A stretch of 64,000 bases of DNA from Methylonatrum kenyense (GTDB lineage Bacteria > Pseudomonadota > Gammaproteobacteria > Nitrococcales > Aquisalimonadaceae). A program made the translations under genes and the position numbers. The stretch is from the NCBI RefSeq assembly GCF_023195885.1, contig NZ_JALPKO010000009.1, positions 1 through 64,000 of the forward strand, read 5' to 3'. The notes under the pieces are model-generated. The model was not told where the DNA came from and did not search any database. It was given only the letters and a program-made list of their open reading frames with translations. Shown here one piece after another: positions 60,768 through 64,000 of this stretch (position 1 is its first letter; the number at the start of each line of letters is the position of its first letter).

Positions 60768-62096
60768 ATGGGCAAGCAGCAATCGGTGGCCGGGACAGCC
60801 GCCGACTATCTGATCGCGTCAAGGCGATGCGAAATCCTCGGCCTTGAACACCTGCTGGGTACCAGTCGCCTGGTGGTGAGCATCAGCAACCTGGTACATG
60901 TACTTCAGCGTGAGCGCGGTACGGCGAACCTGTTTACCGGATCCGCCGGTTCCCGGTGTGGCGGCGCCCTGGATGAGGCCATGGCCCGTTCCCGGGAGCG
61001 CGAACAGCGCTTTCGATCCCGCTTGCGGGAGCTGGATACGGGGGCGAGCAGTCCTGCCTCCAACAGCCGCCTGTTCAACCGAATCGCGCATGCGCTACGC
61101 GGCCTTGACGCGCTTGAGGCGGTGCGCGACGCGATCCGGCAGCAGTCCCTGTCGCCGGAGACCATCATTGAGGGCTACAGTGCCCTGATCCAGGCGCTGC
61201 TTGGCGTTGTTTTCGAGGCCGCGGACTCGGCGGCGGACCATGCCATTTCGGCGATTCTGGTTGCCATGTTTCATCTGATGCAGGGCAAGGAGTTTGCCGG
61301 TCAGGAACGGGGGATTGGCGCCGCCGGCTTTGCCCAAGGCGAGTTCGGACAACGCTCGCGCAGACGCCTGCAGCATTTGATCGACAGCCAGGAACGCTGC
61401 TTCGAGGTGTTTGTCGGCTTCGCCGATGCCGAATCGCTCCGGCTCTGGAACGACGGGGGCGCGCACCGGGCCTCCGCCGAACTGGAACGGCTACGGCGTA
61501 TCGCACTGACCAGCGGGACTGCCACAGCCAATGTCGATGACCTCAGCGAGGCCTGGTTCGACGAGGCGAGCCGACGGATCGACGCAATGAAGCTGGTGGA
61601 AGATCAGCTTGAACGCAGCCTGGAAACACTCTGCAGCGCAACCCTGGAGCAGGCGCGCGACGCCCTCAGTCGGCAACGAACAGCGATCGAGGCCCTTGCT
61701 GCGGAGCCGGCCCCTGGCGGCACCTTTGCTGTGTTTCTCGGTAGCGACGAGCGGTCTACGCCCGACGACGGTGGTACGCAGCGCTACACGATGGAATGGG
61801 GTGGCGAGCAGCTCGGTCGTTCGCTGCTGGAATTGCTGCAGTCCCAGTCACGGCGGCTCCAGGCGATGGGCGAGGAGCTCAACGGCGCGCGCGCCGCGCT
61901 CGCCGAACGCAAGAACATCGAGCGGGCCAAGGGTTTGATCATGCGGCACCGCAGGTTGACCGAGGAGGAGGCGTACCGATTCTTGCGCGAGGTGGCGATG
62001 TCGCAAAGCCGCCGCCTGGCCGACGTCGCCGCCGACACCATCGCCATGGCCGATTTGCTGGGAGATTCGGGGGAAGCCAGCGGCCACCGGGGTTGA
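60768..62096 (+). CDS. nasR: Nitrate-sensing transcription antiterminator (NIT-ANTAR, NasR type)
   Basis: 442 residues from ATG 60768 with 'gagag' upstream. Residues ~30-330 are the all-helical NIT nitrate sensor: 'LVVSISNLVHVLQRERGTANLFTGSAGS' is its first helix pair and 'RIDAMKLVEDQLERSLE' its last. After a linker, residues ~375-435 form an ANTAR RNA-binding domain ('LNGARAALAERKNIERAKGLIMRHRRLTEEEAYRFLREVAMSQSRRLADVAADTI'). In Klebsiella NasR, nitrate binding to NIT lets ANTAR bind two leader stem-loops and prevent termination. The nirB leader just downstream holds exactly such stem-loops and a terminator. Own sigma-54-like promoter and NtrC-type site upstream. Confidence 0.9.
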   Translation: MGKQQSVAGTAADYLIASRRCEILGLEHLLGTSRLVVSISNLVHVLQRERGTANLFTGSAGSRCGGALDEAMARSREREQRFRSRLRELDTGASSPASNSRLFNRIAHALRGLDALEAVRDAIRQQSLSPETIIEGYSALIQALLGVVFEAADSAADHAISAILVAMFHLMQGKEFAGQERGIGAAGFAQGEFGQRSRRRLQHLIDSQERCFEVFVGFADAESLRLWNDGGAHRASAELERLRRIALTSGTATANVDDLSEAWFDEASRRIDAMKLVEDQLERSLETLCSATLEQARDALSRQRTAIEALAAEPAPGGTFAVFLGSDERSTPDDGGTQRYTMEWGGEQLGRSLLELLQSQSRRLQAMGEELNGARAALAERKNIERAKGLIMRHRRLTEEEAYRFLREVAMSQSRRLADVAADTIAMADLLGDSGEASGHRG

Positions 62097-62144: not shown

Positions 62145-62262
62145 TCGCTGCCACGAGGCCTACTGTCAGCCTCGTCAGGCGATTGCCGGTTCCTCCTGCG
62201 ACGCGCGTTGCTCCAGTGAACGGCTTGCTGTCATTGCTGCTCATGTTGGCATCCCCAAAATG

Positions 62263-62310
62263 AAAAACGCCCACCACCTTCCGCGCCTTTACGGAAGCCT
62301 GATGGGCGTC
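62263..62310 (-). terminator. Intrinsic-terminator-like structure on the minus strand
   Basis: Read on the minus strand, ACGCCCA...CTTCCG / CGGAAG...TGGGCGT is a nested two-part stem followed by TTTTTCATTTT. No minus-strand gene is recognised upstream of it (up to 62.6 kb), so it may end a small RNA or just be a strong hairpin in the plus transcript. Confidence 0.5.
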
Positions 62311-62500
62311 ATTGCCGGTTCGGAGAACGCAACCTGCGTTGGCAGCGTCCTGCCAGGAAGGAAGCAGAAACCGCGCAAGATTCTTGGTCTTCGTAAAAAC
62401 AGAGACTTAGGTGAACTGCCGGATCCCGGCCTGCATAAAAATCCCATATTGCAGTGCAGCGTCGCGGGGCGATTCACCAAACTGGCGCAAGGGCAATGCC

Positions 62501-62531: not shown

Positions 62532-62548
62532 TGCCCCAGGGGGGTGCA
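62532..62548. promoter_or_regulatory. Strong NtrC-type enhancer site for nirB
   Basis: TGCCCC-AGGGG-GGTGCA matches TGCACC-N5-GGTGCA at 11 of 12 positions. Its centre is about 112 bases upstream of the predicted sigma-54 start, the distance seen at E. coli glnA. Confidence 0.75.
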
Positions 62549-62626: not shown

Positions 62627-62642
62627 TGGCACGGCTTTCGCT
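62627..62642 (+). promoter_or_regulatory. Sigma-54 promoter of nirB
   Basis: TGGCACG-GCTT-TCGCT: the -24 element is perfect, the -12 element has one mismatch (TCGCT for TTGCT), and GG (62628-62629) and GC (62640-62641) are separated by ten bases. Start predicted at about 62652, six bases before the first leader stem-loop. Confidence 0.8.
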
Positions 62643-62657
62643 TTATCTGGTTTATTG

Positions 62658-62682
62658 CTGCGTGACCACTGGCGGTCCGCAG
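62658..62682 (+). promoter_or_regulatory. ANTAR target stem-loop 1 (hexaloop ACUGGC)
   Basis: C-T-G-C-G / C-G-C-A-G and GACC/GGTC pairs with one bulged T give a 9-bp stem closing the six-base loop ACTGGC (62668-62673), with A at loop position 1 and G at position 4, the ANTAR recognition pattern. Confidence 0.75.
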
Positions 62683-62706
62683 TCCGGCGATGCATGGCGC
62701 ATCAGC

Positions 62707-62728
62707 CGACGAACAACGGCGTTCATTG
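62707..62728 (+). promoter_or_regulatory. ANTAR target stem-loop 2 (hexaloop AACGGC), antiterminator
   Basis: CGACGAAC / GTTCATTG pair with one C-A mismatch and one G-U, closing the six-base loop AACGGC (62715-62720), again with A1 and G4. Its 3' half uses the same bases (62719-62728) as the 5' arm of the terminator, so the two cannot form together. A competing hairpin CGGCGATGC / GCATC-A-GCCG (62685-62708) lies in the linker. Confidence 0.7.
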
Positions 62729-62774
62729 CAGGTGTCCCCGGCGGGGATATGGCTGTGATGAACGCTTTTTTTTT
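62719..62774 (+). terminator. Regulated intrinsic terminator in the nirB leader
   Basis: GCGTTCATTGCAG pairs with CTGTGATGAACGC (13 positions, two G-U), topped by TCCCC-GGC-GGGGA, and is followed by nine T (62766-62774). It ends 54 bases before the nirB ATG, a position that makes sense only as an attenuator of nirB. Confidence 0.9.
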
Positions 62775-62828
62775 GTCTTGACGCAGGGTCAGTCCGAGCG
62801 GCTGACAGCGTCCGGTTCGGAGAACGAC

Positions 62829-64000
62829 ATGAAGGAAAAGCTGGTTCTGGTGGGCAACGGCATGGCCGGCATGAAGGTGGTCGAAGAACTGCTGACCATC
62901 GCCCCCGACAAGTACGCGATTACCGTGTTCGGTGCCGAGCCCTACGGCAACTACAACCGCATCATGCTCTCGCCGCTGCTGGCCGGGGAGAAATCCCTGG
63001 ACCAGATCATGCTGAACAGCGAGGACTGGTACGCCGACAACGACATACGGCTGCACAAGGGCAAGGAGGTCATCGAGATCGACCGCCACGGCAAGCGCGT
63101 GATCGCTGCCGACGGCACCGTCGAGCACTACGATCGCCTGCTGCTCGGAACCGGCTCGAACCCGGTGATGATTCCGGTGCCCGGACATGATCTGCCGGGC
63201 GTGGTCAGCTACCGCGACGTCAAGGACGTGGACGCGATGCTGGCAGCGAGCCGGCGGCGCAAGCGTGCGGTGGTGATCGGTGGCGGCCTGCTGGGCCTGG
63301 AGGCCGCCTACGGCCTGATGCAGCAGGGCATGGAGGTGACCGTGGTGCAGCTGATGCCGTGGCTGATGGAGCGTCAGCTCGACCAGGCGGGAGGACAGTA
63401 CCTGCAGCGCTCGCTGGAGGACCGCGGCATGCGCTTCCGCATGCAGGCGGAAACCGCCGAGATTGTCGGTGATGACAACGGCATCCGGGCGGTGCGCTTC
63501 AGGGACGGCACCGAGGAAGCGGCCGATCTGGTGGTGATGGCGGTGGGCATCCGGCCCAACACCGAACTGGCCCGCAAGGCTGGCCTGCACTGCGACCGCG
63601 GCGTGCTGGTGTCGGACACGCTGCAGACCTTCGACCCCAGCATTTACGCGGTCGGGGAATGCGTGCAGCATCGCGGCCAGACCTACGGCCTGGTCGCACC
63701 GCTGTTCGAACAGGCCAAGGTCTGCGCCAACCATCTGGCCGGCTACGGCTTTCGGCTGTACGAAGGCTCGGTGACCTCGACCAAGCTCAAGGTCACCGGG
63801 ATCGACGTCTTCTCCGCCGGCGATTTCCAGGATGCCGCGGGCGTCGACAGCATCGTCTACCAGGACCCGTCCGCCGGCATCTACAAGAAGGTCTGCGTCA
63901 AGGACGACCGCATCGTCGGCGCCGTGCTCTATGGCGACACCGGTGACGGCACCTGGTACTTCCAGTTGTTGCGCGAAGGCACCAGCGTCAAGGATTTCCG
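62829..64000 (+). CDS. nirB: Nitrite reductase [NAD(P)H] large subunit (partial)
   Basis: The first 390 residues are visible; the gene runs past the window. FAD-binding 'LVLVGNGMAGMKVVEELL' (6-22), 'YNRIMLSPLLAGEKSLDQIML' (42-62), NAD-binding 'AVVIGGGLLGLEAAYGL' (147-163), second FAD contact 'IYAVGECVQHRGQTYGLVAPLFEQA', and the start of the NirB-specific domain. The sirohaem/[4Fe-4S] and BFD-like Cys regions would lie downstream. It reduces nitrite to ammonia in the cytosol. NtrC/sigma-54 and NasR-type leader control mark it as assimilatory (NasB role). RBS GGAG seven bases before the ATG. Confidence 0.93.
   Translation, partial: MKEKLVLVGNGMAGMKVVEELLTIAPDKYAITVFGAEPYGNYNRIMLSPLLAGEKSLDQIMLNSEDWYADNDIRLHKGKEVIEIDRHGKRVIAADGTVEHYDRLLLGTGSNPVMIPVPGHDLPGVVSYRDVKDVDAMLAASRRRKRAVVIGGGLLGLEAAYGLMQQGMEVTVVQLMPWLMERQLDQAGGQYLQRSLEDRGMRFRMQAETAEIVGDDNGIRAVRFRDGTEEAADLVVMAVGIRPNTELARKAGLHCDRGVLVSDTLQTFDPSIYAVGECVQHRGQTYGLVAPLFEQAKVCANHLAGYGFRLYEGSVTSTKLKVTGIDVFSAGDFQDAAGVDSIVYQDPSAGIYKKVCVKDDRIVGAVLYGDTGDGTWYFQLLREGTSVKDF

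Follow-up and report, generated by a model that had tools for sequence, protein, structure and literature searches.

The leader of nirB in the window (the whole 64,000-nucleotide stretch of DNA analysed here) contains two stem-loops whose six-base loops have A at position 1 and G at position 4 (A1/G4 hexaloops), followed by a strong terminator and nine T residues, an arrangement proposed in the original prediction and borne out by the sequence, by folding and by a scan of the window. In our judgement this region is likely to work as an ANTAR antitermination leader of the NasR/nasF kind, responsive to nitrate. That reading, also put forward in the original prediction, is supported by an ordered set of NasR/nasF-type parts, by the layout in relatives and by compensating base changes. 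The anatomy of the leader and the gene order are observed directly, and stem-loop 2 is seen to be conserved together with the terminator. The parts occur in the order NtrC-like site, sigma-54 box, stem-loop 1, middle hairpin, stem-loop 2, terminator and nirB (Table 1), and they make the nirB leader a clean, testable nitrate switch in an Aquisalimonas-related lineage.

Table 1. Features of the nirB leader region, in coordinates of the window
Feature	Position	Strand	Basis and remarks
NIT-ANTAR (NasR-like) regulator gene	60768-62096	+	Pfam, phmmer; start codon uncertain, listed frame from 60711
NtrC-like site TGCCCCAGGGGGGTGCA	62532-62548	.	One mismatch to TGCACCN5GGTGCA; weak; strand unassigned
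Sigma-54 promoter box TGGCACGGCTTTCGCT	62627-62642	+	At most one mismatch; transcription start expected near 62653
Stem-loop 1, hexaloop ACTGGC (A1, G4), C-G closing pair	62658-62682	+	Sequence and RNAfold
Middle hairpin, five-base loop ATGGC	62685-62708	+	Sequence and RNAfold
Stem-loop 2 (antiterminator), hexaloop AACGGC (A1, G4)	62711-62724	+	Sequence and RNAfold
Intrinsic terminator (62719-62765), then nine T (62766-62774)	62719-62774	+	Folding energy, relatives
nirB	62829-64000	+	Pfam on the part in the window; ATG at 62829; runs past window end

Anatomy of the leader and the adjoining regulator gene

Stem-loop 1, CTGCGtGACC[ACTGGC]GGTCCGCAG, has nine pairs and a single bulged T, with its hexaloop at 62668-62673. 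The linker to stem-loop 2 measures 28 nt between the full stems, or 33 nt from the four-pair core, and is filled by the nine pairs of the middle hairpin, CGGCGATGC[ATGGC]GCATCaGCCG, which ends 2 nt from stem-loop 2 (GAAC[AACGGC]GTTC; four pairs, loop 62715-62720). If a dual-hexaloop target is defined as at least two stem-loops of three or more pairs with six-base A1/G4 loops, the leader is one, with stems of nine and four pairs; its 28-nt linker lies outside both the 5–12 nt of eut leaders and the 2–25 nt of an actinobacterial curation of ANTAR targets. The terminator arms are GCGTTCAT...ATGAACGC. Bases 62719-62724, comprising the last two loop bases and the 3′ arm of stem-loop 2, also belong to the terminator, and the two folds are therefore mutually exclusive. 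The predicted overlap stands, although its claimed extent, 62719-62728, was too long.

On its own the terminator folds at −31.8 kcal/mol (z −6.1), a value matched by 0 of 200 shuffles, and the leader from 62652 to 62777 has a z score of −5.4. The exclusion between stem-loop 2 and this same-direction terminator is apparent from the shared bases, the terminator's z score and a pairing change in relatives (see below). Scanning of both strands of the window for A1/G4 hexaloop hairpins with stems of at least four pairs yielded 109, and the pair in the nirB leader is the only one followed by T6. When the segment 62653-62710 was shuffled, any A1/G4 hexaloop hairpin arose in 224 of 5000 cases; in 84 of 5000 such a hairpin lay between +5 and +21 relative to the predicted transcription start. 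The nirB-leader terminator was missed by a simple terminator scan.

The middle hairpin had been viewed as an unusual feature that competes with the other folds. RNAfold retains it alongside stem-loops 1 and 2, and also alongside the terminator, so the competing-hairpin reading was discarded; non-competing hairpins between the loops are, moreover, frequent in related leaders. The GGC ending of the two loops is likewise no oddity, as AANGGC loops are common among related leaders, a frequency to be read with the GGC ending having been built into the search pattern for the relatives' stem-loop 2 and not for their far or near loops.

The sigma-54 box is the sole match in the window with at most one mismatch to the sigma-54 consensus; at up to two mismatches, the count of matches in the window is no higher than chance. 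For the NtrC-like site we assumed TGCACCN5GGTGCA as the consensus: two places in the window, this site among them, match with one mismatch, and matches with up to three mismatches are no more numerous than chance. Neither promoter-type pattern is commoner in the window than in shuffles, so that the NtrC-like site in particular is weak. The sigma-54 box predicts a transcription start near 62653, which would place all of the RNA elements inside the transcript.

The NIT-ANTAR gene expected upstream of the leader was confirmed by Pfam, with NIT and ANTAR matches of 172 and 63 bits, and by phmmer, which aligns the protein with NasR (4AKK) across both domains at an E-value of 2.9e-43; the NIT domain precedes the ANTAR domain, as in a NasR-type protein. 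Identity to Aquisalimonas proteins is 55–58%. Five NasR residues are reported to be important (PMC7496416): R340, K341 and R366 are kept, while W362 is replaced by Y and N373 by S, the positions having been matched by counting along the phmmer alignment. The 2.95-Mb assembly contains an ANTAR protein in one copy only, the single PF03861 match being that next to the leader, and no rival ANTAR partner is therefore known. Downstream of nirB, Pfam matches at locus L011 identify a 113-residue Rieske protein of the nirD type, a nasA-like gene (molybdopterin nitrate-reductase-like), a cobA-like gene (methylase type) and an MFS transporter. The NIT domain and this operon together suggest a response to nitrate or nitrite.

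Related leaders and the spacing of their hexaloops

Six of the 54 genomes searched in the order, that of the window included, contain the stem-loop 2 (P2) motif GAACAANGGCGTTC with T6 behind it; in other families the motif takes the form GGACAANGGCGTCC. With T4, this second form was found in 36 of 369 genomes of the class, the reversed control giving about 9 of 369; with T6, it was found in 29 of 397 genomes of the phylum, and no control matches were seen. Further P2 searches matched 13 of 57 and 29 of 210 genomes, again with no control matches seen. Control matches for the P2 searches were counted by eye. A first set of 77 distinct leaders, reduced to 70 by the removal of similar ones, includes the window's own leader and three likely false hits (L050, L057 and L097, with none of the searched genes). 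In 65 of the 70, a match to NirB, NrtA(-like), NasA, CobA or MFS lies downstream in the same orientation; 55 have a sigma-54 box at up to two mismatches, and a NIT-ANTAR gene precedes at least 20, a minimum because most loci span only 1500 bases upstream. A held-out set consisted of 28 leaders, 17 of them with a sigma-54 box, unlike the first 77 and unlike each other.

Among close relatives, 8 of the family's 14 genomes, the window's own included, encode a NIT-ANTAR protein, and the order regulator, leader, nirB is retained in the Aquisalimonas loci L002, L003 and L004. A search of a plasmid collection returned nothing. The three other genomes of the genus have neither the NIT-ANTAR regulator nor the P2 motif. 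Compensating changes, which had been anticipated for both stems, are found at stem-loop 2 with the terminator and, across the wider group, in the stems of the far hairpins; stem-loop 1 has no counterpart within the genus. None of the refuting outcomes named in the original prediction came up in these sequence comparisons. Of the 64 leaders with C at the variable position of stem-loop 2 (GTCC type), 47 have GG[AG]C in the terminator arm, 1 has GAAC and 16 have neither; of the 6 with T (GTTC type), 5 have GA[AG]C and 1 has neither. These counts support a terminator 3′ arm that tracks the variable base of stem-loop 2, with the qualifications that the search patterns, which contain the P2 letters, in part dictated the change, and that it may be a single event, since the GTTC form is seen only in the window's own family. 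The pair counts of a further alignment (A3) are not independent, its 14 rows having been hand-picked from 40 near hairpins selected for pairing, and alignments A1 and A2 were dropped as misaligned in places.

In addition to stem-loop 2, many leaders contain an A1/G4 hexaloop hairpin near to it (at most 15 nt away), far from it, or both (three hexaloops in total). Of the 70 leaders of the first set, 40 have a near hairpin (shuffle mean 0.81), 31 a far one (3.79) and 18 both (0.03); a far loop of the AANGGC form is present in 17 (0.09). The held-out set of 28 gave 13, 16, 7 and 12, respectively, with shuffle means of 0.36, 1.68, 0.03 and 0.05; its far count is 17 or 16 under slightly different stem rules. 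When far AANGGC words were picked blind to pairing, 18 of 34 formed at least four pairs, compared with 4.2 expected on dealing the flanks anew (sd 1.7, largest 12 in 2000), and such stems were formed by none of 6 control words on the reverse strand and none of 16 taken from further upstream. Judged by this pairing, the far hexaloops are real stem-loops.

In the 20 leaders with a NIT-ANTAR gene, the distance between stem-loop 2 and the A1/G4 hexaloops inside the predicted transcript varies between about 5 nt (L076) and 120 nt (L070), that in L031 being 15 or 18 nt depending on the rule. By the rule used, six of the 20 have no such loop in the predicted transcript (L002, L003, L038, L071, L072 and L095); L038 has an AACGGC loop on a stem with a mismatch. 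Given this span of 5–120 nt, the 33-nt spacing in the window is ordinary for the NIT-ANTAR group while falling outside the eut range. The middle hairpin, with its five-base loop, occupies the place of the relatives' near (third) hexaloop. Its most likely role is to absorb the length of the 28-nt linker, and it may be a worn-down third binding loop.

These leaders lead us to a tentative proposal, to which we attach somewhat less than even weight, that gammaproteobacterial nitrate leaders are commonly three-loop switches in which the far hexaloop would serve as the landing site of the ANTAR dimer before a handover to stem-loop 2. If this were so, the far loop would often lie in the 5′ part of the RNA, on a linker of almost any length and often with a second loop between, the halfway loop of the window having decayed to five bases; and the successive-binding ('recruitment hairpin') model of EutV would be freed from strict spacing. 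The spacing rule derived from EutV fails for the nitrate leaders, in which terminator-distant and third hexaloops are many times more frequent than in shuffles, and these loops bear on whether an ANTAR dimer binds two loops simultaneously or passes from loop to loop. In the portions of the literature that were accessible (including PMC5424462, PMC6759348, PMC3795266 and PMC8164766), no description of a third hexaloop in ANTAR leaders was found. The long-spaced, three-loop form is apparently an undescribed variant of a known switch, for which partial texts are weak evidence.

A fixed distance between the transcription start and the first hexaloop was considered and rejected. In the first set the loop lies at +5 to +21 in 25 of the 55 leaders with a sigma-54 box (up to two mismatches), 10.3 being expected with exchanged start sites (sd 2.5, largest 19 in 2000). 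The interval was chosen after the loop positions had been viewed, and the rule used itself truncates the range 'first loop within 30 nt'. Among the held-out leaders the loop lay in this interval in 5 of 17, with 3.1 expected (sd 1.4), a count reached in 766 of 5000 trials, and the claim was withdrawn on this result.

Several loci depart from the single-leader layout. L117 has two P2-type leaders about 1.2 kb apart (at 1500 and 2658), and paired leaders occur also in genomes G106, G362 and G386; at L089 both strands have a P2-type leader, preceding a NirB match in one case and a CobA match in the other. At L016 and L018 a hairpin CGCC[AATGG(C/T)]GGCG stands after the NIT-ANTAR gene, at some distance from the gene that comes next; no T run was seen after the hairpin, and another route of control is possible.

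Proposed mode of action and partner of stem-loop 2

In Klebsiella oxytoca, NasR is a NIT-ANTAR protein acting at the nitrate operon nasF, whose leader has two A1/G4 hexaloops and a stem-loop 2 that overlaps the terminator (PMC3369936, PMC7496416), as in the window. The window differs in having nirB as the first gene of the operon; its own 28-nt linker holds a nine-pair hairpin. NasR binds the two-hairpin RNA in a nitrate-dependent manner, read-through being 52% with nitrate and 5% without, and SELEX with NasR selected C-G-closed hexaloops with A1 and G4 preferred (PMC7496416). EutV/eutP of Enterococcus faecalis shares the dual A1/G4 hexaloop and the overlap of P2 with the terminator; unlike the window's regulator, EutV is a receiver-ANTAR protein, and the eut linker of 5–12 nt is sensitive to lengthening (PMC3369931, PMC8934654): an extension to 14 nt drastically lowers induction (PMC3369931), and 20 added nucleotides abolish antitermination in vitro (PMC8934654). 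The definition used in a 2012 search for ANTAR motifs allowed a variable linker. In the 2022 EutV structure paper successive binding was proposed, with P1 as a recruitment hairpin (PMC8934654). By analogy, the NasR binding data and the EutV successive-binding model fit the nirB leader. NasT-type gammaproteobacterial nitrate leaders share with the window the core of stem-loop 2, the terminator and the genes nearby; they differ in usually having a canonical near hexaloop, often with a far third one, and their regulator resembles the ANTAR protein of L039, which is taken as NasT-like.

For the nirB leader we envisage that, under nitrogen limitation, NtrC and sigma-54 would initiate transcription near 62653. 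Without nitrate the terminator would fold and transcription would halt at the T run. Nitrate or nitrite would cause the NIT-ANTAR dimer to expose its ANTAR domains, which would bind the first hexaloop as it emerges and then stem-loop 2. Held in this way, stem-loop 2 would consume the first bases of the 5′ arm of the terminator; with the terminator blocked for want of these bases, polymerase would continue into nirB, nirD, nasA, cobA and the MFS gene. Binding of the NIT-ANTAR protein to the hexaloops is what we infer from the parts and their order. Counting against this reading are the linker, whose 28 nt (33 nt from the core) exceeds the eut range, the absence of regulator and motif from the three other genomes of the genus, the six of the 20 leaders with a NIT-ANTAR gene in which, by the rule used, no such partner A1/G4 hexaloop lies in the predicted transcript, and the antiterminator half (the leader up to stem-loop 2), which folds no better than shuffles (z −1.4; 15 of 200 shuffles equal).

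The choice of partner for stem-loop 2 is less secure, and we lean towards the far hairpin rather than the near one. The same switch could instead make its first contact at the middle hairpin, with its five-base ATGGC loop, the far ACTGGC hairpin being an accessory. The frequency of near hexaloops in the 70 leaders and the EutV spacing rule favour such a near partner, as do the hairpins found at the place of the middle hairpin in L002–L004 (seven-base loops) and L025 (a five-base loop), L002 and L003 having no far A1/G4 hexaloop. A five-base loop, however, is outside both the SELEX and the eut consensus, whereas the far hairpin has the canonical loop and closing pair, and five leaders with a NIT-ANTAR gene have only a far A1/G4 hexaloop, at 28 nt (L032), 44 nt (L033), 63 nt (L069), 86 nt (L077) and 120 nt (L070). 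First contact at the middle hairpin is on this evidence rather unlikely. It is highly improbable that the leader is a plain attenuator, or responds to some other factor, with coincidental hexaloops: the shuffle-like folding up to stem-loop 2 and the failure of Rfam to recognise the plus-strand element would be in keeping with that idea, but the hexaloop pair is the only one with T6 in 64 kb, the NIT-ANTAR regulator gene adjoins the leader, and the same P2 motif precedes nitrate-type genes in 65 of the 70 leaders.

narK RNA and the minus-strand region

Rfam gave no match at or above a family's gathering score anywhere in the 64-kb window. The consensus of one family, narK RNA (RF03032), read directly, contains two A1/G4 hexaloop hairpins (AACGGC and AAAGAC) and in this resembles the nirB leader, where the hexaloops are of the same kind; the RF03032 model draws the first hairpin only, and the plus-strand nirB element is unmatched. 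Between 62090 and 62840 there is no plus-strand match to RF03032 at E-values up to 10, the only match being on the minus strand and below the gathering score. In the class, RF03032 gave 18 matches in 15 of 143 genomes (E at most 0.01; L135–L152), one of them above the gathering score, and 7 of the 18 overlap places matched by the P2 pattern. At least two A1/G4 hexaloop hairpins of three or more pairs on one strand are present in 11 of the 18, and 10 of these 11 adjoin a nitrate-type gene. From these counts narK RNA seems to consist in large part of ANTAR-target leaders, and this Rfam family thereby gains a likely function. Four matches have no hairpin (L139, L141, L146 and L151), some of which may be explained by excerpts that miss the match at contig ends. 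A link between narK RNA and ANTAR proteins was not found in the literature, the partial texts covered being weak evidence of novelty.

The minus-strand match, at 62303-62377, is weak (22.3 bits, E 0.07). It falls in an element (62260-62377) whose two hexaloops are AACGCA and AATGAC; the AATGAC hairpin continues into a strong terminator that has TTTTT. The element points towards the 3′ end of the NIT-ANTAR gene; no clear gene follows it, and no sigma-54 match with up to two mismatches lies upstream on the same strand. Taken by itself, the hexaloop portion is no more stable than shuffled sequence. The element may be a relic of the leader of a lost gene, or a small RNA. An exact 15-base direct repeat, CCGGTTCGGAGAACG, occurs at 62315-62329 and 62812-62826, the latter copy covering the likely ribosome-binding region of nirB, so that a minus-strand transcript of 62315-62329 would be complementary to that region. 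The repeat is possibly due to chance, since the same 281-base query has two other exact 15-base matches in the genome.
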